Shown here: piece by piece, positions 4,319-20,652 of the stretch
Numbering within the stretch: the first letter of the stretch is position 1
How the letters are laid out: every line of letters begins with the position of its first letter
From: Deltaproteobacteria bacterium
Lineage (GTDB): Bacteria; Desulfobacterota; GWC2-55-46; DRQE01
DNA: 64,000 bases
Assembly: GCA_015492245.1 (NCBI GenBank)
Contig: WGFM01000012.1
Span: 62,001-126,000, forward strand
Reading direction: 5' to 3'
Program-made: the position numbers and the translations under genes
The notes under the pieces: model-generated
Database searches by the model: none
Seen by the model: the letters and a program-made list of their open reading frames with translations, nothing else
Told to the model about the DNA's origin: nothing

Positions 4319-5091
4319 ACACTCTGGCATACATACCCCTCGCAGGGGCCATCCTCGTCATGGCAGCAGGGTTGATTGTAAGGAGATACAGAAGGTATCT
4401 GACGGTCGCCTCTCTGTTTCTTGTGGGCTATGTTATAGGTTACAGGTGGATTCACTCGGGGCATCCACCCATGCTCGGCACCTTCGAGAAAACCATCATG
4501 GCAGCATTTACACTTCTTGTAACATCCCTTGTTGTGGATAGAAAGGGGGTGTTCTCTGTGCACATCCTGGGTATGGCCATTTTTATCTTGCTTTACGGGT
4601 TGTTTTTTGATACTCAAATAAGACCGCTTGTTATATCGGAACAGAGTCTTCTGGTCTACTTTCATGTCCTGTTTGCATGGATGGGGTATGGCATCTATAC
4701 CTTGTGTTTTCTGGGTGCCCTGCATGTTCTGTGGAGTAAGAGATACAGGGATGAAGAGATAGTAAGGTGGACACTCGAAAGAGGGCTTCTCTATGGTGTT
4801 GTGGCCCAGAGTGTCTCCTTCTTTATAGGTTCCTATTATTCGTCAAGGTTGCACGGAAGCTGGTGGGTGTGGGATGCGGTGGAGTATCTGTTCCTTATAA
4901 GCTGGCTTCTCTATGGTGTTGCGCTGCATGGCAGGGTGCTCTTGAGATGGGATGACAGGAAGGTGGCTGGCTGGATCATTGCAGCCTTTGTTGCAACGAT
5001 TGTGCTCTACTGGGGGCTCGTATACATACCATGGGCCACATACCATGTGTTCGACATGGATATAAAGATGCACATGCCCTTTAGATGGTAA
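4315..5091 (+). CDS. ccsA: CcsA-type haem export/ligation protein
   Basis: A 258-residue polytopic membrane protein with about seven or eight hydrophobic helices. The Trp-rich haem-handling motif appears as GSWWVWDAVE (about residues 181-190), the counterpart of the WWD motif of the CcmC/CcmF/CcsA family. A conserved-type His lies in YFHVLFAWMG and another near the C-terminus (TYHVFDMD). It presents haem to ResB for stereospecific attachment to cytochromes c at the outer face of the inner membrane. Start: TTG 4315 overlaps the resB stop and is preceded by AGGAG at 4301-4305, nine bases upstream. It is the last gene of the tlpA-like-radical SAM-resB-ccsA series. Confidence 0.87.
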   Translation: MNTLAYIPLAGAILVMAAGLIVRRYRRYLTVASLFLVGYVIGYRWIHSGHPPMLGTFEKTIMAAFTLLVTSLVVDRKGVFSVHILGMAIFILLYGLFFDTQIRPLVISEQSLLVYFHVLFAWMGYGIYTLCFLGALHVLWSKRYRDEEIVRWTLERGLLYGVVAQSVSFFIGSYYSSRLHGSWWVWDAVEYLFLISWLLYGVALHGRVLLRWDDRKVAGWIIAAFVATIVLYWGLVYIPWATYHVFDMDIKMHMPFRW

Positions 5092-5184: not shown

Positions 5185-5231
5185 ATGCCTCATAGGGGTT
5201 GGTGTCCATTTCCCTTATGAGGCATTTTTTT
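5185..5231 (+). terminator. Intrinsic terminator, probably in the operon leader (attenuator)
   Basis: Arms ATGCCTCATA-GGGG (5185-5198) and TCCCTTATGAGGCAT (5211-5225) pair almost completely with one bulged base, and a run of seven T (5225-5231) follows: a strong factor-independent terminator. It lies between the predicted promoter (5131-5159) and the first cytochrome-operon gene (5266). A short competing pairing, TGAGG (5175-5179) with CCTCA (5188-5192), could hold the 5' arm and act as an antiterminator. It could alternatively simply end the ccsA transcript. Confidence 0.7.
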
Positions 5232-5265: not shown

Positions 5266-6678
5266 GTGAGATCGGTGGGGTTAAGGGTAGTAGTATGTGT
5301 TTTTTTGCTACTACTGGTTACATCCTGTAAGATTGTGCAAGAGAGACCCTCCTTTCCACTTTCGAAGGCAAGGGTTCTTGTATATATTCATACCGACTCG
5401 TTTTTCCCGCCTGATATAGATTTTACCATTTCAAAGATAGTGCTCGGCTCAGAGCGTGGAGATGCGCTGGTGTTCGAGGGCTCGAAAAGGATAAGCTCCA
5501 TGGAGGTGGCAAAAAGGCAGGTCTTCGTGGCAGAGGGATTCGTGGAGCCAGGGGACTACAACAGGCTTGTCGTAACACTTGAGTCTGTCTCCATAAGGCG
5601 AGGCGAGGGGCGTTCGTCACTCAGACTCGATAGAGAGGATATAGAGTTCAACCTTAAGCATCTTAGGCTTGCCAGATCAGAGAGCACAGTCCTGCAGATT
5701 GGCTGGAACCCTGAAAAGTCCATAAAGAAGAGGATAATATTCTCCCCGGCATTCAATGTGGAGCTCGAAAGGCCATCTGCAAGGGAGTTACTGCTTTTCG
5801 TATCGAACAGCGGAGCCAACTACATAAGCGTTATCGACAGAAGTTTGGAGCGCATTATAGGTGCTGTAACCGTGGGGTTGTATCCAACTGCCATGGCCAT
5901 AAACGAGACAGGGGACTTCCTCTATGTGCTTAATGCCGGAAGCAATACCATATCCATAGTGGACACCGCCCATATGAGGGTGAGGGATACAATAAACATA
6001 GATGTTGGCATAGAGCCAAGGGATATGGCATTCATGCCATCAGCAAAGAACTCGCTTGAGGGAAAGCTCTATGTAACCAACAGGCTTTACAACAATGTGA
6101 TAGTTGTGGATACATTCACCAGAAGGGTGATAAAGAGTATCGATGTGGGGCTTGCCCCTTCCTACATACTGGCAGACCCTGATAGAAAGGAGGTCTATGT
6201 TACGGCAGAGGATACCAACGAGCTCACAATCGTAGACACGGTGGATGATTCGGTAGCGGACACTGTGAAGGTGGACAGCAGACCAACAGGTATTACACGC
6301 TACAACGACAAGTTGTATGTGTTCTGTGAGGGAGGAAGCATAATAGAGGTTATCTCGCAGACTGACAGGAAGGTAACAAATGAGATAACCCTTACCGAGC
6401 CCCCAACGAGAGGGCTCAAGGGGTTTGGCGGAAGGATGTTCGTTGTGAGCAGGAGAGAAGGGATGATTACCTTTTTCAGCTCCGCAGATGTGATAACCAG
6501 AATACTCAGACTCGATGGTGAGCCGGTAGAACTGGCAACAGATGAGACGAGAAACAGGCTCTACATAACAGATTACAGGGATGGAGAGCTCATATTCATA
6601 GATCCCATAGGAGAGGTAATAGTAAAAGAGATCGTGGTGGGTAGCAAGCCTTACTGGGTTGTCCAGCTTGACAAGTGA
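5266..6678 (+). CDS. YVTN-type beta-propeller lipoprotein
   Basis: A lipoprotein of about 470 residues, first gene of the cytochrome operon. The signal ends in LLVTSC, followed by an N-terminal beta domain (about 25-165) that resembles DUF4382 proteins, including VEPGDYNRLVVTL. The rest is a repeat domain with blades such as YVLNAGSNTISIVD and YVTNRLYNNVIVVD, typical of YVTN seven-bladed propellers. GTG 5266 is preferred over TTG 5230, because AGGAG (5253-5257) sits eight bases upstream and the shorter product starts directly with a signal peptide. TTG 5230 also lies in the terminator's T run. Propellers of this sort often scaffold multiprotein surface complexes. It has no haem motif. The stop is one base before the next start, implying coupling to the beta-barrel gene. 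Confidence 0.8.
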   Translation: MRSVGLRVVVCVFLLLLVTSCKIVQERPSFPLSKARVLVYIHTDSFFPPDIDFTISKIVLGSERGDALVFEGSKRISSMEVAKRQVFVAEGFVEPGDYNRLVVTLESVSIRRGEGRSSLRLDREDIEFNLKHLRLARSESTVLQIGWNPEKSIKKRIIFSPAFNVELERPSARELLLFVSNSGANYISVIDRSLERIIGAVTVGLYPTAMAINETGDFLYVLNAGSNTISIVDTAHMRVRDTINIDVGIEPRDMAFMPSAKNSLEGKLYVTNRLYNNVIVVDTFTRRVIKSIDVGLAPSYILADPDRKEVYVTAEDTNELTIVDTVDDSVADTVKVDSRPTGITRYNDKLYVFCEGGSIIEVISQTDRKVTNEITLTEPPTRGLKGFGGRMFVVSRREGMITFFSSADVITRILRLDGEPVELATDETRNRLYITDYRDGELIFIDPIGEVIVKEIVVGSKPYWVVQLDK

Positions 6679-6679
6679 G

Positions 6680-8773
6680 ATGAGGATATATACAGGATTC
6701 ATTCTTTTCGGTGCAACCATGCTGGTGGTTCTGCTGCCGCTCTATAGTTATGCCTATCTGAATGCGAGGGCTGATGTGAACTATAGAGACACAAGTAGTA
6801 TTATTGGTGGTGTGGAAACGAGCACCCAGAGCTTTGATCAGCTCTATACACTTGGTGTGTCCAAGAGGCTCACCAATACCATAACGATACTCGGTGATGT
6901 GAGGGTGTTTATAACGGATGTGGACGGCAAGAAGAACGAAAGCTCTTACCCATTTCTGTCTTTGAGTTTTAATCCTCCCACAATGTATAAGCTCCGGTTC
7001 AGCTACAACCGTAACGAGTCATTGCCATCAGAGGGGGACAGGACAACCACTTCATTCATGAACGCATCCTTCACCATGTCACAGACAGAGTGGCCCTCCC
7101 TTGGGGTGGCCTATACCCGTTCGACCTCACAGGACCACAACACACCGAGAAAGCTCGATAGCGAAGACTCCACCCTTAACATAAATACATCCTACAGATT
7201 TACCCTTTTAGATACAGATGGCACACTGAGTTATTCCTTCAGATACTACAAGGTTGAAGACAAGGTGAGCGCTGCCAGGACAGACTCGCCCTATCACACA
7301 GTATCGTCTAATTTCCGTAGAACCTTTTTTTCTGGAAAGCTTCGTGCCAACGCCAATATAGGCTATAGCTATTATGAAACTGAGACAGAGAGTCTCGGAG
7401 GGGCAACAAGGTTTGAGGATGAGGTTGCGCCATCAGAGGGGCTTGCAGAGTTCAATCCACCTGATGCGACAAGTGTAACCCTCTCTCAGGAAACAGAGCT
7501 TATAGACAACAACAGAAATACCCCTGTAACACCCGAGATAAATCTTAACAATGCTGGCTGGAACATAGGTGTGGGGTTCATGAAGGCCGAGTCCCTGCAT
7601 GCCATATACCTTTACATAAACACCACGGTAACCGAAGAGTCCAACATAGTGGGTGGGCTTTACAATTTTGGATGGAGGCTTTATACAAGCTCTGACAACG
7701 CAGTATGGACTGACAGGGGCATCATAACGCCATCGTATAACAGCATATACAACAGATTCGAGTTTTCCTTCTCAGAGGCGAGCGCAAGATACTTCAAGGT
7801 TGTCAACACGGCTGGAGCAGGAACAGACGCCATAAGGGTTACAGAAATAGAGGGTATAGGCTACCAGCTCACCATCCCGAAAACCACTTTAGAGACCACA
7901 GAGACAAGGGAATTCGGAGGCATGACCCTGACCTACACTCCCTCAAAGAGGCTAACCATTGGGGCAAGGGTCAGGTATGACCACACCCTGAGGGAAGGCG
8001 ACACAGAAAGTGAATACACCACAGCATCTTATGGATTCAATACACGGTATGTAGTGGTACCTGTATATCTTGTTCTGTCCGGTGATTATTCCACATCAAC
8101 TGTGGATGTAGTTGATGGAACTAACACAGAAATCAATACATACTCGCTTGTTGCAACTTCTTCACCACTACCCACCATAAACGCCAATATGGGATTCAGG
8201 AGTTCCGAGTCCAGTGTAGATGGGGTTACCACAAGCACCAGTGATATAGTGTCAACCCATGTCTCCATGCGTGTCTACAGAGGAGTAGACCTGACACTTG
8301 GTGGAAGCCTCTCTTCCACCGGGAATCCCACGACAGGAACCGATACCGACTCAAGGACATTTTCATGGAACCTTAAGCTTGTTCCCTGGTCCTACCTCAC
8401 GCTCATATACGATGGGAGTGTGGTGCGCTCTACAACAGATAGTGCCACTACAGGAAGTAGCTCCTCCACAACCACGCAGAGCCAGTATCTTACCATGAGC
8501 TTTGTTCCCACAAGGGCGGTATTTGTGGGAAGCCGTATAAACATAGAGCCGACACAGATGCAGAACTATAATCTGATATGGACTCCCACGAGCAAGGTCA
8601 GGATGTCGCTGGACTATACAAGCAATCCATCAAGTGATACAGAGTCTGTAGGAACAGGTATAAGCTGGTATCCGGTGCGCAGGTTCTCCATAAGCACCGA
8701 CTATAACAAGACATGGAAGGACGATGACGAGACAGAAACAGTGTTTGTAAGGGGCTCACTCATCATAATATAA
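6680..8773 (+). CDS. Outer-membrane beta-barrel protein with inserted discoidin-like domain
   Basis: A protein of about 697 residues with a signal peptide (hydrophobic segment LVVLLPLYSYAYL) and then long runs of alternating Ser/Thr/Tyr-rich strands, e.g. LRFSYNRNES and NIGYSYYETETES, typical of a large outer-membrane barrel. Between about residues 280 and 390 the pattern changes: WRLYTSSDNAVWTD and ARYFKVVNTAG resemble an F5/8 type C (discoidin) carbohydrate-binding fold, after which strands resume to the C-terminus. ATG 6680, one base after the previous stop, starts a clean signal peptide; the open frame extends back to TTG 6659. In a multihaem cytochrome operon such a barrel is a candidate sheath for an electron conduit across the outer membrane. 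It is not recognisable as MtrB/PioB or OmbB by sight. Confidence 0.7.
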   Translation: MRIYTGFILFGATMLVVLLPLYSYAYLNARADVNYRDTSSIIGGVETSTQSFDQLYTLGVSKRLTNTITILGDVRVFITDVDGKKNESSYPFLSLSFNPPTMYKLRFSYNRNESLPSEGDRTTTSFMNASFTMSQTEWPSLGVAYTRSTSQDHNTPRKLDSEDSTLNINTSYRFTLLDTDGTLSYSFRYYKVEDKVSAARTDSPYHTVSSNFRRTFFSGKLRANANIGYSYYETETESLGGATRFEDEVAPSEGLAEFNPPDATSVTLSQETELIDNNRNTPVTPEINLNNAGWNIGVGFMKAESLHAIYLYINTTVTEESNIVGGLYNFGWRLYTSSDNAVWTDRGIITPSYNSIYNRFEFSFSEASARYFKVVNTAGAGTDAIRVTEIEGIGYQLTIPKTTLETTETREFGGMTLTYTPSKRLTIGARVRYDHTLREGDTESEYTTASYGFNTRYVVVPVYLVLSGDYSTSTVDVVDGTNTEINTYSLVATSSPLPTINANMGFRSSESSVDGVTTSTSDIVSTHVSMRVYRGVDLTLGGSLSSTGNPTTGTDTDSRTFSWNLKLVPWSYLTLIYDGSVVRSTTDSATTGSSSSTTTQSQYLTMSFVPTRAVFVGSRINIEPTQMQNYNLIWTPTSKVRMSLDYTSNPSSDTESVGTGISWYPVRRFSISTDYNKTWKDDDETETVFVRGSLIII

Positions 8774-8803
8774 ACACATAAATGCTTTGCAAGGAGAGGC
8801 GAA

Positions 8804-9394
8804 ATGGAGTATAATAACATTAAAATGGCAAGAATTGCAACAAGAATTGTGATTCCTTTCATTGCGGTTTTGCTGCTGGGTTGTTCGGCCAAGGTGGTGC
8901 GTTATGTGAATCCGGAGGCAAATTTCTCTTACATCAAAAAGGTGGCAGTGTTACCCTTCAACAACTTCAGCAGCGACAGATTCGCCGGAGAGAAGGTAAG
9001 GACAGCCATAATGGTGGAGCTTCTATCAAGGGGTGTCTTCGATGTGGTTGAAGAGGGAGAGGTTAACAAGGTTGTTAGCATGGTTTTAAGGGCTGCAGGT
9101 GCGCTTGAAGGTGGAGTGTTCGAGCCAGACAGAGAGACCATAAGGATACTCGGTGAGAGGCTTGGTGTGCAGGCCATCATAATTGGAAGTGTGGAGGAGT
9201 ACGGCGGAGGCAGAGAAGGCGTTGTGTCCATTTCAGCCAGAATGATAGATACGAGCTCTGGTATTGTGCTATGGCAGGCAAAGGCCTATGAGACGAGCTC
9301 CAGCGCATGGCGAAAGATATTAGGCATAGAGGAGCTCGACCGCACTGTGTTGACCACAAAGGCGGTAAGGAAGTTGCTCGATACACTCCTATAA
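8804..9394 (+). CDS. CsgG/GNA1162-like lipoprotein (first of three)
   Basis: A 196-residue lipoprotein with lipid Cys27 (VLLLGC). The core carries the signature of the CsgG/GNA1162 outer-membrane lipoprotein superfamily: KVAVLPFNNFS at the start of the domain, LGERLGVQAIIIGSV in the middle, then SISARMIDTSSGIVLW. CsgG forms the curli export pore, while GNA1162-like proteins have poorly known roles. The ribosome-binding site AGGAGAGG (8792-8799) fits ATG 8804. Two more paralogues lie in the same operon (9423 and 12747). The call to the superfamily is firm; pore formation or export is inference. Confidence 0.75.
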   Translation: MEYNNIKMARIATRIVIPFIAVLLLGCSAKVVRYVNPEANFSYIKKVAVLPFNNFSSDRFAGEKVRTAIMVELLSRGVFDVVEEGEVNKVVSMVLRAAGALEGGVFEPDRETIRILGERLGVQAIIIGSVEEYGGGREGVVSISARMIDTSSGIVLWQAKAYETSSSAWRKILGIEELDRTVLTTKAVRKLLDTLL

Positions 9395-9422
9395 GTGAGG
9401 ATGAGCAGGGGGTAGGTGAAAG

Positions 9423-11015
9423 ATGCGCAGGATGTTATCCATACTCTTCAACTCCACTGTCCTGACGGGTGCAGGGATTGGAGCATTCATGCTTGCTTGC
9501 ATGGTTACACACCTCCACGCTGGTTCCGAGCTCTACTCCTACAGAAGTGTAACACCTCTGCTTCCATATTACGGCTCCAAAGGTATGGCCAGCCCGAAGG
9601 TGGTAAAGAGTGTGGCCATATTGCCCCTTGAGAACCTGTCTGACAATCCTGCTGCAGACGAGATAATAAGGGACTACATAAAAAGAGAACTTACGGGAAA
9701 GGGCTGGGTACTTATAGCAAGGGATGCCGATATAGAGAGTTTTCTGGCAAAAAGAAGAATACGATATACAGGAGCAATAACACGGCTCGCGGTAAGAGAG
9801 ATGGGTAAGAGGCTTGGTGTGGATGCGGTGGTGGTCGGTTCGATTCTCTATTACACCAAGATACGCGACAAGATAATCGTAGGGGTAGCCCTGAGGGTAT
9901 TGAGCACAGCCGATGGCAGTATACTGTGGGCTGAAAACATTACATACACCGGGAAAGACTTCGAAGGACTGTTTGGACTCGGCGTGGTGAAGTCTCTCGA
10001 TGTCCTTGCAGACATGGTGGTAAGAGATATTGTGGGCAGTATGGCCGACAGGTTCTTCATAAGAGACTCTGCAATGAGTCCTTTCGAGATAGAGCGGGTT
10101 ATACTGCAGCCATCCATAGGGAGGGGGCCACAAAAACGGGAGATAAGGGTGAAGTTCCTTCCCCTGTCGGGAGAGCCTGAAAAAGTAAAGGCTGTAGTTG
10201 ATGGTAAAGTGTATATGCTTTCAAGGTATGGTAAGGAGTACAGAGGTTATATCCATGTTCCCGAGGCCGAAGGAACATACATGGTAAGCCTTGTTGCAAC
10301 AGATGAAAAGGGCGGATCCCACTTCTTCGACGCAGTAGGTGAGGCCGTTGTAGACAATACACCCCCCCAGATTGAGATGTATGCAACAAAAAAGATATTT
10401 TCAACACGAGACAGAAGAAATGGTTATGTTCTATTTGAAACCAGAGTCTTGAGTGTGGACAGCATAGAGGGCTGGCGTGTGGAGGTAAGAGATGAAGACG
10501 GTAAGGTGGTAAAGCTTGAGTATGGCTATGGAGCCATACCCCCAAAGTTTATATGGAAGGGTGAGTCTGAAGAGGGATGGGTGGTAAAGGACGGAAAGTA
10601 CTCTTTTAATCTTATTGTGGTAGACAACGCGGGCAATGAAACCCTGGTGGCCCGTAAGGTAAAGGTAAAGACCACGCCCCCAAGGATCAATGTATCTGTT
10701 GACATGGTAGAAGGGGTGATACTGTTCAACTTCGAGTCGGCAGAGCTGGAAGACATAAGAACATGGAGCCTTACCATACTCGACAAGGATGGGAAATTGA
10801 TGAAAACCGTTACCAACGATAAGGGGAAGTTGCCTGAGAAGGTGGAGTATCCTGTGGGTGATGATGTGGACATAAGAGACCTCAAGTTTATACTTAAGGC
10901 CACAGATGTGGCAGGCAATAAGCTCGAGCTGAAAAAGAGTGTGCCTTCAGTGTTTGCAACGAAGATGCCCTTCGCAAGGTTGAAAGGAAAGACCGATGTA
11001 TGGGAAGACTTTTAA
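9423..11015 (+). CDS. CsgG-like domain fused to Ig/FlgD-like repeats
   Basis: A 530-residue exported protein. It has an N-terminal signal/anchor (about 8-33), then a CsgG/GNA1162-like domain (about 60-225) with SVAILPLENLS, MGKRLGVDAVVVGSI and LSTADGSILW. The C-terminal half contains two or three beta-sandwich repeats with FlgD/Ig-like wording: GKYSFNLIVVDNAGNET and later RTWSLTILDKDGK with FILKATDVAGNK. This is much longer than simple CsgG-like lipoproteins; the Ig-like repeats could form a rigid extension or bind another component. There is no obvious lipobox at the signal end (AFMLACMV is possible but positioned early). An AGGTGA and an AGGGGGT element precede ATG 9423. Second of three paralogues in the operon. 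Confidence 0.7.
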   Translation: MRRMLSILFNSTVLTGAGIGAFMLACMVTHLHAGSELYSYRSVTPLLPYYGSKGMASPKVVKSVAILPLENLSDNPAADEIIRDYIKRELTGKGWVLIARDADIESFLAKRRIRYTGAITRLAVREMGKRLGVDAVVVGSILYYTKIRDKIIVGVALRVLSTADGSILWAENITYTGKDFEGLFGLGVVKSLDVLADMVVRDIVGSMADRFFIRDSAMSPFEIERVILQPSIGRGPQKREIRVKFLPLSGEPEKVKAVVDGKVYMLSRYGKEYRGYIHVPEAEGTYMVSLVATDEKGGSHFFDAVGEAVVDNTPPQIEMYATKKIFSTRDRRNGYVLFETRVLSVDSIEGWRVEVRDEDGKVVKLEYGYGAIPPKFIWKGESEEGWVVKDGKYSFNLIVVDNAGNETLVARKVKVKTTPPRINVSVDMVEGVILFNFESAELEDIRTWSLTILDKDGKLMKTVTNDKGKLPEKVEYPVGDDVDIRDLKFILKATDVAGNKLELKKSVPSVFATKMPFARLKGKTDVWEDF

Positions 11016-11024
11016 CATATCACT

Positions 11025-12155
11025 ATGTGGAAGTGTAGGTTGGAGGTTTACCGCAAGAGAGTATTGTATCTACTAGCCTGTTTCATCATATTGATCTACA
11101 GCAAGGCTGCATGGGCAGAGACAGACTGTGAGACCTGTCATTCGGGAACGGAGGCCCGAAAATGGGGTTTAAAGGATGTGTATGCCGGAATCTACAGTTA
11201 CAGATTCCGGCATAACAATGTGAGTAGAGAGTGTAGAAGATGCCATATTATAGAGGAGTTTCAGATAAAGGCAGAGAGTGAGCTATATTTTCCAGGTAGC
11301 ACCACGGAGGGTATATTCTTTCTAACAGGGCTTTCACTCGACAAGGAGTACGAGGTAGAGCTTAAGTTTAAAGATCAGCGTAAAGGTGTTGTGCAGAGGA
11401 AAGTGCTGAAACTTAAGCCATCACGTATAGCGGTGGAAAAGGGTGACGGCGCCCCGCCGAGTGTTAGGACCATAAGATTCCTTGGGATAAGAGAGGGTAT
11501 TATACCAGAAGGTATACTCTACTTCGAGACGGACAGACCTGCAGTGAGTGTGGTGGAGTACTGGAAAGACGAGCGATACAGGGAGAGGGTCGTGAACCTC
11601 AAGGTGTTCCTGAAGGAGCACACTGTAAGGCTTTCTGGCATCAGGAAGGCAGATAGGTACAGATACAGAGTAATAGTGATGGATGTTTTCGGGAACAGAA
11701 GTATAAGCGAGGGTGTTTTGTTTGCCGGAGAGAAAAAAGAGGGCATGGGAGTTGATGCTCTCGGTGAAGATGGAGGCAGGGTGGCAGAGACTGCCATAAA
11801 GGTCTTCAGACCTGCTCCTGCGGCAGACCTCTGTCTTCACCTGATGGCTCCTGAGCCGGTTATGGTGTCTGTAAGTATAAGAGAGATTATAGAGAACACC
11901 AAGCACGGCTATGGACTGAGATCAGCAAGGTATACAAATATTAATGTTTGCACCCAGTGCCACAGGGCAGGCATATCACATCCTGTAGGTGTAAGAAACA
12001 CCAGGGCTGATATAGACATACCGGAAGACCTGCCAACCATAGAGGCCGGGGTCATAACATGTGTTACATGCCACTACCCACATGGTGGAGATAAACCTTA
12101 CTTTGCAAGATTCGACTTCGATGAAATCTGTGAGATGTGTCATAAAGGGTTGTAA
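11025..12155 (+). CDS. Pentahaem c-type cytochrome with central beta domain
   Basis: A 376-residue secreted cytochrome. After the signal (cleavage likely after AWA, near residue 31) come CETCH (35-39) and CRRCH, then a long haem-free beta-rich region (about 90-290) with Ig/fibronectin-like wording such as VVEYWKDERY and YRYRVIVMDVFGN. At the C-terminus are CTQCH, CVTCH and CEMCH, the last two forming a paired-CXXCH unit. Five haems therefore sit in two groups separated by a spacer domain. The layout suggests a periplasmic or surface cytochrome bridging two partners rather than a compact redox shuttle. The gene follows the previous stop by nine bases. Function is inferred only from haem content and context. 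Confidence 0.85.
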   Translation: MWKCRLEVYRKRVLYLLACFIILIYSKAAWAETDCETCHSGTEARKWGLKDVYAGIYSYRFRHNNVSRECRRCHIIEEFQIKAESELYFPGSTTEGIFFLTGLSLDKEYEVELKFKDQRKGVVQRKVLKLKPSRIAVEKGDGAPPSVRTIRFLGIREGIIPEGILYFETDRPAVSVVEYWKDERYRERVVNLKVFLKEHTVRLSGIRKADRYRYRVIVMDVFGNRSISEGVLFAGEKKEGMGVDALGEDGGRVAETAIKVFRPAPAADLCLHLMAPEPVMVSVSIREIIENTKHGYGLRSARYTNINVCTQCHRAGISHPVGVRNTRADIDIPEDLPTIEAGVITCVTCHYPHGGDKPYFARFDFDEICEMCHKGL

Positions 12156-12192
12156 TAACAGGAAACCTACTTAGAAGTTTTAGGAGGCAGAT

Positions 12193-12750
12193 ATGGTTAA
12201 CAGAGCAAAGGAGAGAAGAAGGAGGCTGAACTATTCGATAAAGCGCCAGATGCAGATGAGGCTTTTCTTAAAGGTTCTTTCAGTGGTGTTGCTTGGGCTT
12301 GTGCTCTCCTCGGCCATATTTTTCTACATGTCCAACCAGGAGGTGGGAGAGACCTACAGGCAGTTCCATATACAGGCCAGAAATTTCCTTGATTTTCTCC
12401 TGCCGGGCATAGCAATAGCCTTTATGGTGGGACTTGTTGTTGCCATCTCAATAGCATTGTTTTTCCCCCATAAGATTGCGGGGCCTCTCTATAGAATAGA
12501 AAGAGAGGTGAAAGAGATGGTTGGAGAGGGGGACCTGAGGGTCAGGTTCACTGTGCGCGATGGTGATGAGGTGGGAGACCTTGCAGATGCACTGAATACG
12601 ATGGTGGGAAAGTTGCGAACAAAGATAGAAAGACTCAATGCCGTTGCGGATGAGCTTTCTGCCCTTTCAGAGGATCAGAACATAGACAGAGAAAGACTTA
12701 GAGAGACAGTAGGTATGCTGGAAAGAATACTCAAGGAGTTTAAACTGTGA
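12193..12750 (+). CDS. HAMP-domain membrane protein without output domain
   Basis: A 185-residue inner-membrane protein. A basic N-terminus precedes two transmembrane helices (about 27-46 and 68-92) with a short periplasmic loop of about 20 residues. Then comes a HAMP domain beginning HKIAGPLYRIEREV, with the second helix around GDEVGDLADALN, and a C-terminal coiled coil. No kinase, cyclase or methyl-accepting region follows, so this is an orphan HAMP protein. AGGAGG (12182-12187) gives a good start at ATG 12193, and the stop overlaps the next start as GTGA. Possible roles are sensing, or assembling a complex in the membrane; small HAMP proteins of this kind next to cytochromes have been seen in other genomes, but I know of no assigned function. 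Confidence 0.75.
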   Translation: MVNRAKERRRRLNYSIKRQMQMRLFLKVLSVVLLGLVLSSAIFFYMSNQEVGETYRQFHIQARNFLDFLLPGIAIAFMVGLVVAISIALFFPHKIAGPLYRIEREVKEMVGEGDLRVRFTVRDGDEVGDLADALNTMVGKLRTKIERLNAVADELSALSEDQNIDRERLRETVGMLERILKEFKL

Positions 12751-13313
12751 AGAGGACTGTGCACATAATATTGCTGTTTGTGCTGGTCTTTTCTGCATGG
12801 ACGGGATGCACACACAGAACTGATGGGCTTGACAAGCTTGTGAACTCTTCTGAGTACAGAAAACTCAAGAAGATAGCCGTGCTTCCCTTCAACAATATAA
12901 GTGGCAGAAAGGATGCAGGCAAGATGGTGGCAGATATATATGTTGCGGAACTATTTAGAAGTGGAAAGTATCGCGTTGAAGAACCTGGAAACATAAAACA
13001 GTTTCTCATACAGGAACACATAACCACCATAGGAGAGATGGAGATAGAGAGGCTCAAGGTCCTGGGCAGACGCCTCAAGGTGGATGCAGTTGTGGCAGGC
13101 ACTGTTGAGGAGTTCGATGATGGAAAGGGTGGGGTGCCTGTGGTTAGTATATCTGCAAGGATGGTGGATTCCAGGACGGGGCGTATCCTCTGGTACGAGC
13201 GTATAAAAAGAAGAGGTGATGATTATATAGTAATATTCGATATAGGACTTGTAAGCTCGGCCACAGCGCTTGCAAAAAAGATAGCAAAAGAGATGATAGA
13301 AAAAATAGATTAG
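12747..13313 (+). CDS. CsgG/GNA1162-like lipoprotein (third paralogue)
   Basis: A 188-residue lipoprotein with signal end AWTGC, starting at GTG 12747 in overlap with the HAMP gene stop. It repeats the family features of the 8804 gene almost block for block: KIAVLPFNNIS, LGRRLKVDAVVAGTVEEF and SISARMVDSRTGRILW. The close match to the first paralogue suggests duplication inside the operon. The three copies could form a mixed ring or serve different substrates; the sequence does not decide. Followed 11 bases later by the parvulin gene. Confidence 0.75.
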   Translation: MKRTVHIILLFVLVFSAWTGCTHRTDGLDKLVNSSEYRKLKKIAVLPFNNISGRKDAGKMVADIYVAELFRSGKYRVEEPGNIKQFLIQEHITTIGEMEIERLKVLGRRLKVDAVVAGTVEEFDDGKGGVPVVSISARMVDSRTGRILWYERIKRRGDDYIVIFDIGLVSSATALAKKIAKEMIEKID

Positions 13314-13324
13314 AAAGGAGCCTG

Positions 13325-14716
13325 GTGTATAAAAATATTATGAAAAGATACATACCACATTCCCTTCTTGTACCTGCTGTTTTGCTTGTTCTGTATGGAA
13401 ATGCAAATGCCCTTTCACTTTTTTCTGTATTCAAGAAGAAACCCTATGTTGCAAAGATAGGAGACAGGGTTATAACCACAGAGGCGTTCATGGAAGAGGT
13501 GCGAAGGCTTCATACCCTTGACAGGGTGGGCAAGAAACTCTCTGAAAGCGAAGAGATGTCCTTCAGAAAACAGAACTATCGGAAATTCCTTGACGAGATA
13601 ATAGAGAGGGAACTGATGATAATGGAGGCAGAGAACCTTGGGCTCCATGAAGACCCTGCCTTTCTGGAAGCCATGAGGGTGTTCAGGTTGAACCTGTTCC
13701 TCGACAGGCTCAGAAAAGAAGAGGTTGTCAAAAATGTCAAGATAACCGAAGACGATATACTCAACTATTACAGAGAAAAGCTAAAAAGGGGCGACAGAGA
13801 AAAGCCCACGCAGGAAGAAAGGTATGCCATAGAGAGGGCGCTATACACGGAAAAACTCAAAGAGAGGGAGAAAGAATACTTCAAGAGTCTTCGCAGGAGG
13901 GCGAGAATAAAGATATACGATGATGTGCTGAAGGCCCTGTCAGAGGATTCCTCCAGGAAGGAGGATTACAAGAAGGTTGTAGCCCGTATAAACGATAAGC
14001 CTGTATATGCGATGGAGCTCTTAAGAGAGTTGGAACGAGTCAAGAAGTATGATATGACAACGAAGAAGAAAACCCTCGATGGCCTTGTTCTCCGCAAGCT
14101 GCTCGATAAAGATGCCCTCCGCAGGGGGTATGAAAAGGACGCTGAGATAAGAAAGAGGATAGAACTTTACAGAAAGAAACTTCTTGTAGAGGTGTTCAAG
14201 AACAGGGTTATACTCCCCCTTGTAAAGGTGAAAGAGGAGGAGATAGAGCAGTACTATGAAAACAATAAAGAAGAATACAAAGAACCCGACAAGTTCAATA
14301 TAAGCATAATAGCCCTTCGCAACGGTGAGCTTGCAGACACCATAGCAAAAGAGCTCAAGAAGGGAGGAGACTTCGGCTATCTCGCCAGGGAGCATTCTGT
14401 AGATTCCTCTCGTGTCAATGGTGGTCTTGTTGGCTGGGTCTCAGAGAGGAGCCTGCCTCGCAATGTGCTGGCTCTTATAAAGAAGGCCAAGAAGGGTGAG
14501 ATTATAGGCCCCATTAGAAACAGAAGGCTTCTTATCATATACAATCTCAATGATTATAGAGAGGGAAAGCCTCTTCCTCTTGAAAAGGTGAGAAGAGATA
14601 TAGATATAACCATTGGAAGAAAGAAGTTCAAGGAGACCCTTGAGCTTTATCTGAAACGGTTGAAGAAGGTTGTCAAGATAGAGATAAACGAAAAGGAACT
14701 TGCTCGCTTCTACTAA
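13325..14716 (+). CDS. SurA/PrsA-like parvulin peptidyl-prolyl isomerase
   Basis: A 463-residue periplasmic folding factor. The signal ends near ANA (residue 29), followed by a helical SurA/PrsA-type N-terminal domain, YVAKIGDRVITTEAFMEEV, repeated in part later as VVARINDKPVYAMELL. A parvulin (PPIC) domain lies at about 305-400: FGYLAREHSVDSS and GGLVGWVSERSLP are typical, followed by GEIIGPIRNRRLL. It assists folding of exported proteins; inside a cytochrome operon its clients are probably the barrel or the multihaem proteins. Parvulins also occur in Geobacter cytochrome-nanowire gene neighbourhoods. GTG 13325 lies four bases after AAAGGAG (13314-13320); ATG 13340 is too far from that site. 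Confidence 0.85.
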   Translation: MYKNIMKRYIPHSLLVPAVLLVLYGNANALSLFSVFKKKPYVAKIGDRVITTEAFMEEVRRLHTLDRVGKKLSESEEMSFRKQNYRKFLDEIIERELMIMEAENLGLHEDPAFLEAMRVFRLNLFLDRLRKEEVVKNVKITEDDILNYYREKLKRGDREKPTQEERYAIERALYTEKLKEREKEYFKSLRRRARIKIYDDVLKALSEDSSRKEDYKKVVARINDKPVYAMELLRELERVKKYDMTTKKKTLDGLVLRKLLDKDALRRGYEKDAEIRKRIELYRKKLLVEVFKNRVILPLVKVKEEEIEQYYENNKEEYKEPDKFNISIIALRNGELADTIAKELKKGGDFGYLAREHSVDSSRVNGGLVGWVSERSLPRNVLALIKKAKKGEIIGPIRNRRLLIIYNLNDYREGKPLPLEKVRRDIDITIGRKKFKETLELYLKRLKKVVKIEINEKELARFY

Positions 14717-14731
14717 GCAGGGAGGTCTACT

Positions 14732-16660
14732 TTGAACAGGTATCTTTTTTCAACAGTTGTTTTGGTCGTACTGGTCTTTACCGCTGGGTGTTACGGGCCC
14801 CAGAGGGTGATCAAAAAGAGCTGTGTTGACTGCCACTCAGAGGAAGTGAAAAGATTCGGACAAGAGGGCACTCTCCATACTCCTGTTGCAGAGGGCAGGT
14901 GTGAGGGGTGCCATTCACCGCATGGTCTTATAGGGGGGGTTCTTCTCAAGGGTAAGGATGCCTCCCTGTGTTACCGCTGCCACAAGAAAGAGGATATGGA
15001 GGGCAAATCCACCCATACTCCCCTGAAAGAGGGAGAGTGTCTTACATGCCATGACCCCCACTCATCTCCATACAGGGCTATTACCATCAAAGGTGGAAAC
15101 GAGCTGTGCTATACATGCCATCCCAGGGAAGACTTCCAGGGCAATAGGGTTCACAGGGCAATGGACAGGGGGTGTAACAGTTGTCATGAGCCACATTCGT
15201 CTGAATATTCCTACAATCTGAAAGACGAGGGCAACAGGCTGTGTGCGGATTGTCATGATCCATTGAGTGCTTCTTTTAACAGAAGCCATTTCGACTACAA
15301 GGTTGCCGGTTCGGATTGTCTTTCCTGCCACACCCCCCACTATTCTAAGAGCAAGACTCTCATAAGAGACTTTGTCCACAAGCCTTTTGAGGACAAGACA
15401 TGCACAGAGTGTCATAATCCCGCAGACTCTGAAGAGCCTCTTGAGACCCGCCTCAAGGGCAGTGAGCTGTGTTATTCCTGCCACAGGGACCTCAAGGAGC
15501 GTTTTGATAAAAGAAGGCTTGTGCATTCACCGCTCGGTGAGTGCACAAGGTGTCATGACCCCCATGCCTCTGACCAGAAGATGGAGCTTGTCTCAAAAGA
15601 GGATGTCCTGTGCTACAGTTGCCATGGAGACACGAAGAAGAAGCAGGCAAAGAAATACATGCACACCCCTCTCAAGAAGGGGCAATGCAGTGGATGCCAT
15701 GAGCCACATTCTTCAGACACAGAGAAGTTCCTGAAGATGTCTACAGATACGCTCTGTTACGAGTGCCATAAAAAGACCGATTTTTCTGGCAAGGTGGTGC
15801 ACAGGCCGGTAAGAGAGAACGGGTGCATAAGGTGTCATGATGCTCATTCTTCTGAACAAGACTTTCTCATACTCAAGACCGAGGGAGAGCTCTGTTACAG
15901 TTGTCATGCCACAGAGAGGAGCAGTTTTGACAGGGTGAGTGTTCATCCAAGGGTAAAGCAGGGCAGGTGTTCTGCATGCCACATGCCGCACAGGTCTTCC
16001 TACGCAGGGCTTCTTACCGATAGTCCAGAACGGCTGTGTTTTGAATGCCACTTTACCACCATAAGGGAGGTTTCCAGAGAGGGACGCCACAAGGTATTCG
16101 AAGACGGCAGATGCCTGGCATGCCACAGTGCACATGCAAGCAACAGTCCCCACCAACTCCTTACCGATGTGCCTGAGGTATGTTACAGTTGTCATGAGCC
16201 TGTCAAGGAAGACCTTGCCAGAAGAAATGTACATCAGCCATTCGAGGCTGGCAAGTGCACAACATGCCATATGCCACATGGTAGCAAACTCAGGTGGGCA
16301 CTTTCAAGGCCACCTGACTCTCTCTGCTACTCATGCCATAAGGACTTCAGAGAAGAGATGGAAAGAGAGGGTGTGTTTGTTCACAAGGTTGTAAAGGATG
16401 GTGGTTGTGCTGAATGTCATAAATCCCATGCTACCAGAGAGCGGTGGCTGCTTAGAAGGGACGGGCGCACATTGTGTAACAACTGCCATGATACATCCAC
16501 AGAGGAGATTACCATTGCACACAGTAGTATAAAGATAGAGGGCTCTGATTGTCTCGGCTGCCACGAGCCGCACATGGGCAAGGACAGGAGCCTTCTTCAC
16601 AGGGTTTTGCATAAGCCCTTTAAAGATGGTGATTGTAAAAGGTGTCATAGCCGTATATAA
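14732..16660 (+). CDS. 26-haem outer-membrane lipoprotein cytochrome c
   Basis: A 642-residue lipoprotein (lipid Cys20, FTAGC) with 26 CxxCH motifs by my count, the first at residues 31-35 and the last four residues from the end. It is built from about thirteen paired-CXXCH units of 45-50 residues, each of the form H-x-P-(3-5)-G-x-CxxCH-x-PH-x-S-(8-12)-LCYxCH. The regular His before each pair probably supplies distal ligands. This gives one haem per 25 residues, the density of extended cytochrome wires. TTG 14732 follows GGGAGG (14720-14725). The lipoprotein signal and position after barrel, CsgG-like and parvulin genes suggest an outer-membrane or surface electron carrier. A redox partner or terminal acceptor cannot be named. 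Confidence 0.9.
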   Translation: MNRYLFSTVVLVVLVFTAGCYGPQRVIKKSCVDCHSEEVKRFGQEGTLHTPVAEGRCEGCHSPHGLIGGVLLKGKDASLCYRCHKKEDMEGKSTHTPLKEGECLTCHDPHSSPYRAITIKGGNELCYTCHPREDFQGNRVHRAMDRGCNSCHEPHSSEYSYNLKDEGNRLCADCHDPLSASFNRSHFDYKVAGSDCLSCHTPHYSKSKTLIRDFVHKPFEDKTCTECHNPADSEEPLETRLKGSELCYSCHRDLKERFDKRRLVHSPLGECTRCHDPHASDQKMELVSKEDVLCYSCHGDTKKKQAKKYMHTPLKKGQCSGCHEPHSSDTEKFLKMSTDTLCYECHKKTDFSGKVVHRPVRENGCIRCHDAHSSEQDFLILKTEGELCYSCHATERSSFDRVSVHPRVKQGRCSACHMPHRSSYAGLLTDSPERLCFECHFTTIREVSREGRHKVFEDGRCLACHSAHASNSPHQLLTDVPEVCYSCHEPVKEDLARRNVHQPFEAGKCTTCHMPHGSKLRWALSRPPDSLCYSCHKDFREEMEREGVFVHKVVKDGGCAECHKSHATRERWLLRRDGRTLCNNCHDTSTEEITIAHSSIKIEGSDCLGCHEPHMGKDRSLLHRVLHKPFKDGDCKRCHSRI

Positions 16661-16675
16661 TTTCGGAGTGGTATT

Positions 16676-17896
16676 TTGGTCATGAAGAGAACTATGACGA
16701 TCATATGCCTGACAGCACTGACAGGTCTGGTTTTTGTGTTCTACAGCGCCGCTTATGCCGCAAAGAAGGATACGCGCAGGCTCTGCCTGGAGTGTCATAA
16801 GGAAGTGGACGGTTTTTTTGATAAAAAGAGGGTGCACAAACCTGTTGCAGGGGGGCAGTGCACAGCCTGTCATAATCCACATGCATCGAAACACAAGGAC
16901 CTCATTGGGGCCGATAGAGAAGAGCTCTGCTATGGTTGTCATCCTAAGGACAGGCTTTTCAGGGGCAAAGTGGTGCACCAGCCGGTGGTGGAGGGGTTGT
17001 GCCTTGAATGTCATGCATCTCACTCGAGCGACAACCCCTGGCTTCTGCGGGGTAAGGAGGTGGAGCTCTGTTTCGGATGCCATAAGAAAGAAGAGATACA
17101 GGGAAGGAAGTTCGTGCATCCTGAAGTGGAAAGTGGCAGGTGTACCACCTGCCATGATCCACATGGTTCCACACTGATGGGGCTTATAGTAAAGGAGAAT
17201 ATGTGTATATCCTGCCATAATGCAGGCTCTGATGGTCTTAAGATGGCTCACTCAGGGCTTAATGTGAAAGGCACCAGATGCCTCTCATGCCATAGTCCCC
17301 ATTCTTCAGATAACGCTGGTATAGTAAAGGCCAATGTGCACAAGCCATTTGCCGAGAAAAGGTGCGATGTGTGCCACGAACCGGGCTCAAAGGAAGTTGC
17401 AAGAAAGGGCTACAATATGTGTCTTGCCTGTCATGATGGCACCATGCAGAGCTTTTACAAGAGATACAACCATCTCATGGCAGGTAAGGAGGGCAACTTC
17501 TGTGCCGATTGCCATACCCCTCATGCAAGCGATGAGAGGGCACTGCTCAAAGATAGAGAGGACAAGACATGCTGGCAGTGTCATGAGGATACAGAAGGGT
17601 TTACACACAGTGCAAGGTATGTGCATCCAGACCTCAAGAAGTGTCTTGATTGCCATGTTTCTCACGGTTCGAACGCAAGATATATGCTCACCGCGGGAGA
17701 CAACACATGCTCGATGGAGGGATGTCATCCCTCACAGGGGAGGTTCACACATCCGGTGGGAGAGAAGGCCATAGACCCTCGCTCCAGGGAGCCCATGAAT
17801 TGCTCCACATGCCACAATCCCATGGGCTCGCCAGAGGAGTTTATACTGAGGGCAGGAAAGGTTGTGGAGCTATGCATAAAATGTCATCAAATATAG
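16676..17896 (+). CDS. Multihaem cytochrome c with 15 CxxCH plus one CX4CH
   Basis: A 406-residue secreted cytochrome with a cleavable signal (after about AYA, residue 28). It has 15 CxxCH motifs, first at 37-41 and last three residues from the end, and one CX4CH (CSMEGCH, 345-351), a spacing known to bind haem in some cytochromes c3. Thus 15 or 16 haems. The paired-CXXCH units match those of the 26-haem protein (CHNPHAS, CHASHSS, CHDPHGS), so the two are paralogues, one lipid-anchored and one soluble or polymerising. GGAG (16665-16668) fits TTG 16676 at seven bases; ATG 16682 is an alternative. The stop overlaps the NHL-repeat gene by 16 bases. Confidence 0.88.
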   Translation: MVMKRTMTIICLTALTGLVFVFYSAAYAAKKDTRRLCLECHKEVDGFFDKKRVHKPVAGGQCTACHNPHASKHKDLIGADREELCYGCHPKDRLFRGKVVHQPVVEGLCLECHASHSSDNPWLLRGKEVELCFGCHKKEEIQGRKFVHPEVESGRCTTCHDPHGSTLMGLIVKENMCISCHNAGSDGLKMAHSGLNVKGTRCLSCHSPHSSDNAGIVKANVHKPFAEKRCDVCHEPGSKEVARKGYNMCLACHDGTMQSFYKRYNHLMAGKEGNFCADCHTPHASDERALLKDREDKTCWQCHEDTEGFTHSARYVHPDLKKCLDCHVSHGSNARYMLTAGDNTCSMEGCHPSQGRFTHPVGEKAIDPRSREPMNCSTCHNPMGSPEEFILRAGKVVELCIKCHQI

Positions 17897-18801
17897 TTGA
17901 TGCTGTAAAAACAAATGTCCTGATAATAGTAGTGTTGCTTGTGGCACTCTGTGGTGGTAGTGCCTACGGGGTGGAAACAAAGAAAGTAAGGCTTGCCCAT
18001 CTTATAGCTACAGATGAGTTCATGGGGAGATTTAACGAACCTGGCAGTGTCTTCTACGATGGATTGAAAAAGAGACTCTATGTTACAGATAGCGGAAACA
18101 AAAGGCTTGTTTCTTTTGATGAGGAGTTCAGGTATCTCTCCGAGCTTTCACACAAAGGTTTTTCCATACCACTTAGTATAGTAAAGACATCCACAGGAGA
18201 GTTCTACATAACAGATGCCGAGACAGGTCAGATAAAGTTTGTGGATGTTAAGAACAGGACCATAGTGCCCCTAAGGATAAAAGGTATGGACGAGAAGGAA
18301 CGATTTGTGGCAGGCAGACTCGCCCTGGATGAGAAGGAGAATCTTGTGGTAACCGACAGGCTCAACAGAAGGATACTCGTTTTAAGAAGAGATGGCACAC
18401 TGCTTAAGACCATAGAGCCAGGTGTTGAAGGGCTTTATGGTTTTGTGGATGTGAAGGTGGATGAGAAGGGCTATATATATGCGGTGGATACTCTTGGACG
18501 TAAGGTATACATGTTCGACAGGACAGGCAAACTTGTAAGAAGATTTGGTGCAGATAACCGGATCATGCGTTTTCCCGTAAGTGTTGCTGTGGACTCGAGG
18601 GGATATGTATATGTGCTTGACAGGCATAGCGGAAGAATACTGGTCTTTAGCGGCAGAGGAGACCTGCAATACCTTCTTTTACGAAAAGGTGTATCTCCAG
18701 GGGAGCTTTACAATCCTGGCTATATATACATAGATGTGGAGGACAGAATCTATACCATAGATGGTAACAGGGTGCAGATATTTGTAGAAGGCGATCAATA
18801 A
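17881..18801 (+). CDS. Secreted NHL-repeat beta-propeller protein
   Basis: A protein of about 306 residues with a signal peptide (NVLIIVVLLVALCGGSAYG) and six or so NHL-type blades, for example RLYVTDSGNKRLVSFD, YIYAVDTLGRKVYMFD and YVYVLDRHSGRILVF. The frame is open back to 17650, but ATG 17881 gives a normal signal peptide and has GGAG at 17866-17869, so translation starts inside the end of the cytochrome gene. NHL propellers recur next to multihaem cytochromes in metal-reducing bacteria and may bind or scaffold them. This is the second propeller of the operon, of a different type from the YVTN protein at 5266. No enzymatic residues are apparent. Confidence 0.83.
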   Translation: MSSNIVDAVKTNVLIIVVLLVALCGGSAYGVETKKVRLAHLIATDEFMGRFNEPGSVFYDGLKKRLYVTDSGNKRLVSFDEEFRYLSELSHKGFSIPLSIVKTSTGEFYITDAETGQIKFVDVKNRTIVPLRIKGMDEKERFVAGRLALDEKENLVVTDRLNRRILVLRRDGTLLKTIEPGVEGLYGFVDVKVDEKGYIYAVDTLGRKVYMFDRTGKLVRRFGADNRIMRFPVSVAVDSRGYVYVLDRHSGRILVFSGRGDLQYLLLRKGVSPGELYNPGYIYIDVEDRIYTIDGNRVQIFVEGDQ

Positions 18802-18802
18802 T

Positions 18803-19477
18803 ATGTTGAGAGGGGCTGTATACATCTTTCTCCTTTTGCTGATTGCGGGTTGTGTGGTGAAGGAAGTACAGGAGCCCACACCAGAGCCAGGGCTTACCAC
18901 CATTCCGGTCTACCAGAAGGGTACCTATGCTTTCAGCACCAGACAGGCCATAGGGCTTCTTGAAAAGAGGAAAGAACTTGAGAAGAAAAGACGTGAGGAG
19001 ATAAAAAGAAGGATAAAGGAGGCCCAGATATCCGGGCTCGATGACCCATGGATTCCACCCCAGCCTGTAGATCCAGATACACTGCCACCAGCGCTCAAGG
19101 ACTTTCCAAAGGATACATACGGTTATCCTGACTGGACAAGGGCTGTGGATGAAAAACTTATAGAACCACGGAACTATGTTACAGAGGATAAGCCAGACAC
19201 CGAACCCCTTGATCTTGATATACTCTTCGAGATCAACGACAGGCTCATGGCAAATGTTCGTTTTTCCCATAAGGTCCACACCTTCTGGCTTTCATGCAAG
19301 AACTGTCATCCCGGCATATTCAAGGAGAAAAGAGGCGCCAACAAGTTCAATATGTACGACATCTGGAATGGTGAGTACTGTGGCAGGTGCCATGGCAAGG
19401 TGGCTTTCCAGCCAAAGGGGTTTGATAATTGTCAGAGATGCCATAATGTCAGAAAGAAGACCATGGGCATAAGGTAA
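18803..19477 (+). CDS. Trihaem c7-type cytochrome lipoprotein
   Basis: A 224-residue lipoprotein, last gene of the operon, one base after the previous stop. Lipid Cys17 (LIAGC) is followed by a linker with a highly charged coiled-coil stretch (about 54-74) and a Pro-rich segment. At the C-terminus is a three-haem domain of the cytochrome c7 type: CKNCH (165-169), CGRCH (193-197) and CQRCH (210-214), with FSHKVHTF supplying the usual distal histidines. The long tether could let the haem domain reach across the periplasm from a membrane anchor. It probably passes electrons between periplasmic carriers and the larger cytochromes; this role is inferred. Confidence 0.87.
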   Translation: MLRGAVYIFLLLLIAGCVVKEVQEPTPEPGLTTIPVYQKGTYAFSTRQAIGLLEKRKELEKKRREEIKRRIKEAQISGLDDPWIPPQPVDPDTLPPALKDFPKDTYGYPDWTRAVDEKLIEPRNYVTEDKPDTEPLDLDILFEINDRLMANVRFSHKVHTFWLSCKNCHPGIFKEKRGANKFNMYDIWNGEYCGRCHGKVAFQPKGFDNCQRCHNVRKKTMGIR

Positions 19478-19584: not shown

Positions 19585-20652
19585 GTGAAACTCGACTACA
19601 AACATAAGGCTGTCTCTGAGACCAATGGAAGCGAAGGCAACGGTTACAGTGCCAGGGTGCTTGTAGTAGATGATAATGTGCAGAATGTTGAACTTGTGGA
19701 GGCACTCCTTGTATCCAAGGGATACCGGGTTATAAAGGCGTACAGTGGCAGGGAGGCGCTCAAGAAGGTCGAGGAGGTTCTTCCTGATATAATCCTTCTT
19801 GATATTATAATGCCACAGATGGATGGTTACGAGGTCTGCAGGCGTCTTAAGGAAAAAAAGGAGACCCGTTTCATCCCCATAGTTATGCTCACAGCCCTCG
19901 ATGGGGTGGATGACAAGGTAAGGGGCATAGAGGCAGGGGCAGACGACTTTATAACCAAGCCATTCCAGAAGCCAGAGCTTCTTGCAAGGATAAAGTCCCT
20001 CATAAAGATGAAGATGCTGTTCGATGAGCTGGAGAACGCACAGAATGTGCTGTTCTCTCTCGCTCTGGCTCTTGACTACAACGATCCATATACACATGGA
20101 CACTCACAGCGTGTCTCCGAGCTGTCTGCAAGGCTTGCTCAATATATAGGGCTTCCTTCTTCACAGCAGGAGATAATAAGAAATGCAGGCATACTCCATG
20201 ACATAGGAAAGATAGCAACGGACAAGAACATACTTCATAAGCCAGGGGCTCTTAACATAAACGAGTACACACATGTGAAACAGCATCCTGTAATAGGCGA
20301 GAGGATATGCAGGCCCCTTAAGTTTGCAAAGCCACTGCTTCCCATCATAAGGGGACACCACGAAAGGTTCAACGGCACGGGCTATCCTGATGGGCTTGAG
20401 GGCGATGGCATCCCCCTGGGTGCGCGAATACTGGCCATTGTGGATGTATACGATGCACTCACCTCGGTAAGACCCTACCGCGGGGAGATACCTTCAGAGG
20501 TGGCCGTGGAAGTGATGAAAGCAGAGGCACTTAAGGGCTACTGGGACAAGGAGCTTCTGAAGGCATTCTCAAGCATGATCAAGGAGAGCGAGGAAGAGTT
20601 GCGCTCAACAGAGCTGACAGATGGCACAGGTGTCTTCAGAGAATGCGATTGA
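19585..20652 (+). CDS. Response regulator with HD-GYP c-di-GMP phosphodiesterase domain
   Basis: A 355-residue cytoplasmic regulator. The receiver domain (about 24-140) has the acidic pocket VVDD and phospho-acceptor Asp73 (LLDIIMP), with Lys125. The HD-GYP domain (about 150-335) has HD at 205-206, Lys209, HHE at 258-260 and GYP at 266-268, so the metal and substrate residues are in place and it should hydrolyse cyclic di-GMP. GTG 19585 is preceded by AGGAGGAG. A cognate kinase is not adjacent. Its position right after the cytochrome operon suggests that surface electron transfer or attachment may respond to c-di-GMP, but it has its own promoter, so the link is not proven. Confidence 0.92.
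   Translation: MKLDYKHKAVSETNGSEGNGYSARVLVVDDNVQNVELVEALLVSKGYRVIKAYSGREALKKVEEVLPDIILLDIIMPQMDGYEVCRRLKEKKETRFIPIVMLTALDGVDDKVRGIEAGADDFITKPFQKPELLARIKSLIKMKMLFDELENAQNVLFSLALALDYNDPYTHGHSQRVSELSARLAQYIGLPSSQQEIIRNAGILHDIGKIATDKNILHKPGALNINEYTHVKQHPVIGERICRPLKFAKPLLPIIRGHHERFNGTGYPDGLEGDGIPLGARILAIVDVYDALTSVRPYRGEIPSEVAVEVMKAEALKGYWDKELLKAFSSMIKESEEELRSTELTDGTGVFRECD

Follow-up and report, generated by a model that had tools for sequence, protein, structure and literature searches.

How nanowire cytochromes exit the cell and are linked to the periplasm is the open question addressed here. In Geobacter sulfurreducens, osc is the OmcS companion cluster (primary paper Shen et al. 2025, as relayed by two papers that cite it, PMC12977616 and PMC13194489), with which such bacteria place electron-conducting cytochrome wires on the cell surface; the former paper links the block GSU2500-GSU2493 with OmcS maturation and secretion, and the latter attributes folding to OscH, secretion to OscE/F/G and morphology to OscD. 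In the SEEP-SRB1 26-haem operon, the described core consists of a 26-haem cytochrome, a 16-haem cytochrome, a prolyl isomerase and a six-bladed propeller (Skennerton 2017, PMC5539420), and the cluster was subsequently presented as the OetABI electron conduit (Murali 2023, PMC10553843). PelC forms a ring of 12 lipoproteins on the PelB barrel, which is 16-stranded and bears a TPR part (PMC12141448). The twelve-gene operon analyzed here is a somewhat enlarged version of the osc/oet cluster; the combination of genes, which the first-pass annotation did not recognise, has thus already been published.

The operon occupies positions 5266-19477 of the window, i.e. the whole stretch of 64,000 nucleotides that was analyzed, and comprises twelve tightly packed genes on the (+) strand, with gaps of 1-37 bp and short overlaps at g6/g7 and g10/g11 (ORF listing of the window):

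5266-6678, +: g1, YVTN/YncE-type beta-propeller lipoprotein in the OscD position (domains, gene order); an upstream TTG at 5230 is also a possible start
6680-8773, +: g2, outer-membrane beta-barrel of ~28 strands in the OscE / OetI position (AlphaFold model, fold match to MtrB 6r2q_B, gene order)
7397-7879, +: low-confidence insert of g2, model residues 240-400 (model and weak F5/8 type C likeness)
8804-9394, +: g3, PelC/GNA1162/LpoB-fold lipoprotein in the OscF position (domains, profile, model)
9423-11015, +: g4, in the OscG position, with a single PelC/CsgG-like domain at residues ~57-209 and Ig/FlgD-like repeats after it
11025-12155, +: g5, 5-haem cytochrome that travels with g6 (motif count, neighbourhood)
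12193-12750, +: g6, two-helix inner-membrane HAMP protein without an output domain (domains)
12747-13313, +: g7, third PelC/CsgG-like lipoprotein, counterpart of the second domain in two-domain OscG
13325-14716, +: g8, SurA_N plus parvulin periplasmic prolyl isomerase in the OscH position (domains, gene order)
14732-16660, +: g9, 26-haem MtrA-like cytochrome in the OscI position (domains, motif count, profile); a probable lipoprotein and candidate OetB
16676-17896, +: g10, 16-haem cytochrome (15 CxxCH and 1 CX4CH) in the OscJ position (motif count, alignment); candidate OetA
17708-17728, +: CX4CH haem site of g10, residues 345-351, CSMEGCH (alignment)
17881-18801, +: g11, NHL six-bladed propeller in the OscK position (domains, gene order)
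18803-19477, +: g12, lipoprotein whose C-terminal domain is a 3-haem cytochrome c7 (motif count, domains)

All twelve open reading frames lie where the first-pass annotation had placed them, on the same strand, and a recount of haem motifs by script yielded the same numbers, i.e. 5 in g5, 26 in g9, 15 CxxCH and one CX4CH in g10 and 3 in g12, or 49 CxxCH and one CX4CH altogether. The assigned domains (YncE/YVTN propeller, PF03783/GNA1162/LpoB-like, HAMP, SurA_N plus PPIC rotamase, Paired_CXXCH, NHL and cytochrome c7) agree with the protein types proposed at that stage (YVTN, CsgG/GNA1162-like, HAMP, parvulin, NHL); the proposed barrel has no Pfam, NCBIfam or convincing PDB match by sequence, yet its predicted model is an all-strand barrel. 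Promoter and terminator scans of the locus gave signals at or near background.

The genome consists of 35 contigs totalling 1.88 Mb and is 100% complete. Immediately 5' of the operon, ResB/ResC-type (system II) cytochrome c maturation genes are found (3329-5091); these were rejected as a part of the system because they are absent beside the cluster in the fetched relatives. The gene immediately 3' (19585-20652) encodes a response regulator with an HD-GYP-type domain, a possible partner of the HAMP protein g6. Elsewhere in the window are an AdoMet synthetase of the PF01941 (archaeal-type) family, despite the genome being bacterial (47717-48922), and a protein with CHASE2 and adenylate/guanylate cyclase domains (55030-57156).

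Gene order and distribution of the cluster

A profile search of 395 genomes of the window's phylum identified relatives of the 26-haem protein in 65 of them (E<=1e-60), and single 26-haem loci were also found in Nitrospirota and Acidobacteriota. About 40 loci, each covering ~20 kb around the best 26-haem matches, were compared, with genes assigned by iterative profiles. The first-pass annotation had proposed a comparison of gene order in related genomes; in all 31 loci with enough upstream sequence (30 distinct genomes, L004 and L081 being one contig), the barrel, first PelC-like (CsgGa), second PelC-like (CsgG4), prolyl isomerase and 26-haem genes follow in this order, so the arrangement is not due to chance. 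The rule across the fetched loci is propeller, barrel, PelC-like, PelC-like, parvulin, 26-haem, 16-haem, NHL, with the propeller downstream instead in some lineages. The window has both the OscD-G order at the 5' side (propeller, barrel, PelC/CsgG-like genes) and the contiguous parvulin, 26-haem, 16-haem and NHL genes. In two Geobacter-type loci (L087 and L090), the 5' hexahaem gene encodes a full-length homologue of OmcS (E about 1e-110 and 1e-106, respectively) beside the same eight-gene order, which identifies the block as osc, GSU2500-GSU2493. Together with the published gene contents, this indicates that Oet and Osc are two names of one conserved cluster, and that the Oet conduit and the Osc secretion cluster are probably the same module, present in at least three phyla.

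Several features are specific to the lineage of the window. Among the aligned loci, the CX4CH motif at residue 345 of g10 is restricted to the window and to relatives from its class (L004/L081, L092, L095, L097 and L098), the first two representing the MAG Dive100_bin4.97 (G119) of the same family; in other lineages the aligned column is CxxCH, and a missing haem in g10 was accordingly rejected, the CX4CH occupying a conserved haem site. Of the 10 genomes with g6, 9 have g5 next to it; these include L083, in which the two genes sit 3' of the cluster, and L100, in which the contig ends within the cytochrome gene. The HAMP protein is predicted to have two transmembrane helices, and the 5-haem/HAMP pair (11025-12750 in the window) recurs like a two-gene cassette across several families; this pair and the tethered 3-haem protein are, from the gene comparison, additions of particular lineages to the cluster.

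PelC-like lipoproteins, the barrel and the multihaem cytochromes

When the g3 and g7 families were compared with the PDB as profiles, PelC came first (9h80, E 6e-10; 5t11, 5t10, 5t0z), followed by GNA1162, and no CsgG chain was found in this search. The AlphaFold model of g3 (pLDDT 83.5; mature length about 165 residues) reached a target TM-score of up to 0.80 with PelC compared to 0.30-0.45 with CsgG. Thus, of the first-pass description of three CsgG-like proteins, the shared core fold and PF03783 likeness stand, g7 being just over the cut-off of this CsgG Pfam model, but by profile and predicted fold the proteins appear closest to the PelC ring lipoproteins, and a curli-type CsgG pore was rejected. 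A true CsgG-family gene (E 9e-35) is present in the same genome, apart from the PelC-like trio (G000:C6:74013-74594).

In the 19 loci without g7, the g4 protein contains two PelC-like domains, whereas another 19 loci, among which L004 and L081 are one contig, have g7 together with an intact g4 that contains one. Therefore, every 26-haem cluster that could be judged encodes at least three PelC-like domains, either with two of them fused and the third on its own (Geobacter type) or in three separate genes (window type). An extra or odd trio was accordingly rejected, as g7 takes the place of the second domain in a two-domain g4. The split and fused forms largely track the 26-haem tree (4 changes vs. 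15 in shuffles), some of these changes being contig truncations (L088, L112).

For the 26-haem profile, the best solved chain was 6r2q_A (E 9e-27), which is MtrA in the 6r2q complex, the molecule name in the record being misleading. The model of g2 has ~28 strands at middling confidence (pLDDT 62, pTM 0.49), and its best PDB fold match is MtrB (6r2q_B, E 5e-9, TM 0.44), with other large barrels close behind and TonB receptors scoring nearly equal. Its insert, residues 240-400, shows a weak F5/8 type C (discoidin-like) likeness (E 0.15 and 0.077) and might be disordered or F5/8C-like. None of g5, g9 and g10 passed the OmcA/MtrC model (g5, 19.3 bits vs. the cut-off of 209.3).

Three loci (L007, L011 and L094) encode the 26- and 16-haem proteins as a single 42-haem fusion of 1044-1079 residues (L011:9869-13108; L007:5060-8194; L094 is G154:C53). 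These fusions argue that the two proteins work as one wire. The fusion genes belong to a second type of cluster that includes a 9-haem protein, a barrel and two PelC-like lipoproteins, without a parvulin; G154 carries both types, about 20 kb apart.

Probable export of nanowire cytochromes and conduction of electrons

The first-pass annotation regarded the system as complete, which was an overstatement because the operon has no nanowire (OmcS-type) cytochrome, the candidates for which are encoded in other parts of the genome. Positions 1 to 26 kb of the window contain no OmcS-type hexahaem gene; a hexahaem gene is located near the cluster in only 15 of 31 loci and so is not an obligate feature. 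Four OmcS-like hexahaem genes are present elsewhere in the genome (G000:C21:26976-33724, L131; G000:C30:6534-9426, L132), two of them adjoining NHL genes, and a profile of the four proteins finds OmcS (E 8e-18). One OmcS-like pair is interleaved with TPR and NHL genes, one of the latter being an NHL-OmpA fusion. OmcS-like and full-length 26-haem genes occurred together in 22/27 genomes compared to 3.3 expected (395 genomes, shared ancestry ignored); outside the window's class, 15 of the 20 genomes with OmcS-like genes have the 26-haem gene, and inside it the co-occurrence was 7/7 vs. 0/10.

The explanation we favour, at about even chances, is that the operon encodes a system which both exports nanowires and conducts electrons. 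It draws on gene content, gene order, folds and co-occurrence, and on the published osc and OetABI roles: the eight-gene order is that of the Geobacter-order loci beside full-length OmcS homologues, the 26-haem protein and the barrel model are nearest MtrA and MtrB, the 42-haem fusions exist, OmcS-like genes co-occur, and g3 and g7 are nearest PelC. From these we infer the following scheme. The parvulin g8 would chaperone secreted OmcS-type hexahaem cytochromes in the periplasm; g3, g7 and the N-terminal domain of g4 may assemble into a mixed PelC-like ring beneath the g2 barrel; and OmcS-type monomers, encoded elsewhere in the genome, would exit via this ring/barrel gate and polymerise outside. 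The 26- and 16-haem MtrA-like proteins would form one long periplasmic wire, docked in the barrel and feeding the filament, which the tethered c7 protein g12 and the 5-haem g5 might load or unload, while the propellers g1 and g11 could be a scaffold for the wire or shape the filament. Because dsrA was not found over the cut-off in this genome, electrons would more likely leave the cell for an external acceptor or partner than enter it to drive sulfate reduction; for the same reason, the genome is probably not that of a SEEP-SRB1-type sulfate-reducing partner of anaerobic methane oxidisers, an identity that is disfavoured.

The putative export role is taken by analogy from Geobacter and from the osc paper as relayed by those citing it. 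Counting against the combined function, the operon itself contains no nanowire gene, a 26-haem protein and an exported cytochrome would not easily occupy one barrel simultaneously, the model of g2 is middling with TonB receptors nearly matching the MtrB score, and Skennerton 2017 (PMC5539420) reports several studies of metal reduction in which the operon showed no expression. The first-pass proposal of a machine for the passage of electrons, and perhaps of cytochromes, through the outer membrane is in line with the published osc/oet work and with the MtrA/MtrB-like pair, although the combination is not a new one. Further elaboration into a hybrid machine, in which three different PelC-fold domains ring-gate an MtrB-sized barrel that is both the cytochrome exit and the socket of the 42-haem (26+16) wire, we consider rather unlikely; if it existed, the filament would be electrically connected during extrusion, and the Oet (conduit) and Osc (secretion) readings would be two views of one complex.

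A pure electron conduit, as in the OetABI model already in print (PMC10553843), would have the barrel hold the MtrA-like wire while the lipoproteins merely brace it, without secretion. This possibility is favoured by the fusions, which fit a fixed wire, and by MtrA and MtrB being the closest proteins of known structure to the cytochrome and the barrel, but the parvulin and the PelC-like ring proteins, constant in 31/31 loci, are not parts of Mtr-type conduits, OmcS-like genes strongly co-occur, and Osc genes are reported (PMC13194489) as necessary for nanowire folding and secretion; we accordingly view it as doubtful. Somewhat less probable still is a pure secretion machine for nanowire cytochromes, where the 26- and 16-haem proteins would store electrons in the periplasm or aid folding in a redox-dependent way, with no conduit through the barrel. 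It would accord with the Osc literature as cited in PMC12977616 and PMC13194489, with the Geobacter proteins being listed as periplasmic in PMC13194489, with the PelC-like ring and with the parvulin missing from the 42-haem type, which implies that export and conduit functions may be separable; however, it leaves the MtrA and MtrB likeness unexplained, and the 26-haem protein in the window's class is a probable lipoprotein. A PelBC-kind polysaccharide exporter, located by chance among cytochrome genes, has PelC as the nearest fold in its favour but was rejected as very improbable given the size of the barrel, the absent TPRs and the tie of the cluster to 26-haem and OmcS-like genes.

Comparison with described systems

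The osc/oet cluster was known; what is added here is the domain count, the range of CX4CH, the 5-haem/HAMP pair and the tethered 3-haem protein, the MtrA/MtrB likeness and the OmcS co-occurrence. For the combined exporter and conduit, the gain is a count of the parts, which include three or more PelC-fold domains, and a ring-on-barrel model that can be put to the test.

The PelC-like proteins share the core fold of the CsgG curli channel but have no room for the CsgG membrane hairpins. As in the PelBC exporter (PelC 5t11, 9h80), PelC-fold lipoproteins adjoin an outer-membrane barrel; in the window, however, the modelled barrel has ~28 strands and no TPRs, the PelC-like domains are of three different kinds, and the context is one of cytochromes. 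In relation to MtrCAB (PDB 6r2q), the cytochrome is nearest MtrA and the barrel model, of middling confidence, nearest MtrB; the operon differs in having 26 rather than 10 haems in the former, no MtrC-like protein among g5, g9 and g10, and ring lipoproteins and a parvulin in addition. The 26-haem and 16-haem proteins, prolyl isomerase, six-bladed propeller and outer-membrane barrel are common to the window and the OetABI / SEEP-SRB1 operon, in contrast to which the OmcX/OmcS genes are unlinked in the window's genome. Finally, the eight genes of Geobacter osc, as described in the citing papers (YVTN, barrel, two PelC-like, parvulin, 26-haem, 16-haem, NHL), are found in the window in identical order. 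The OmcS-type gene does not adjoin them, and the 16-haem protein has one CX4CH; a separate g7 stands in place of the second PelC-like domain of OscG, the protein in the OscG position (g4) bears Ig-like repeats, and the window adds the 5-haem/HAMP pair and the 3-haem lipoprotein.
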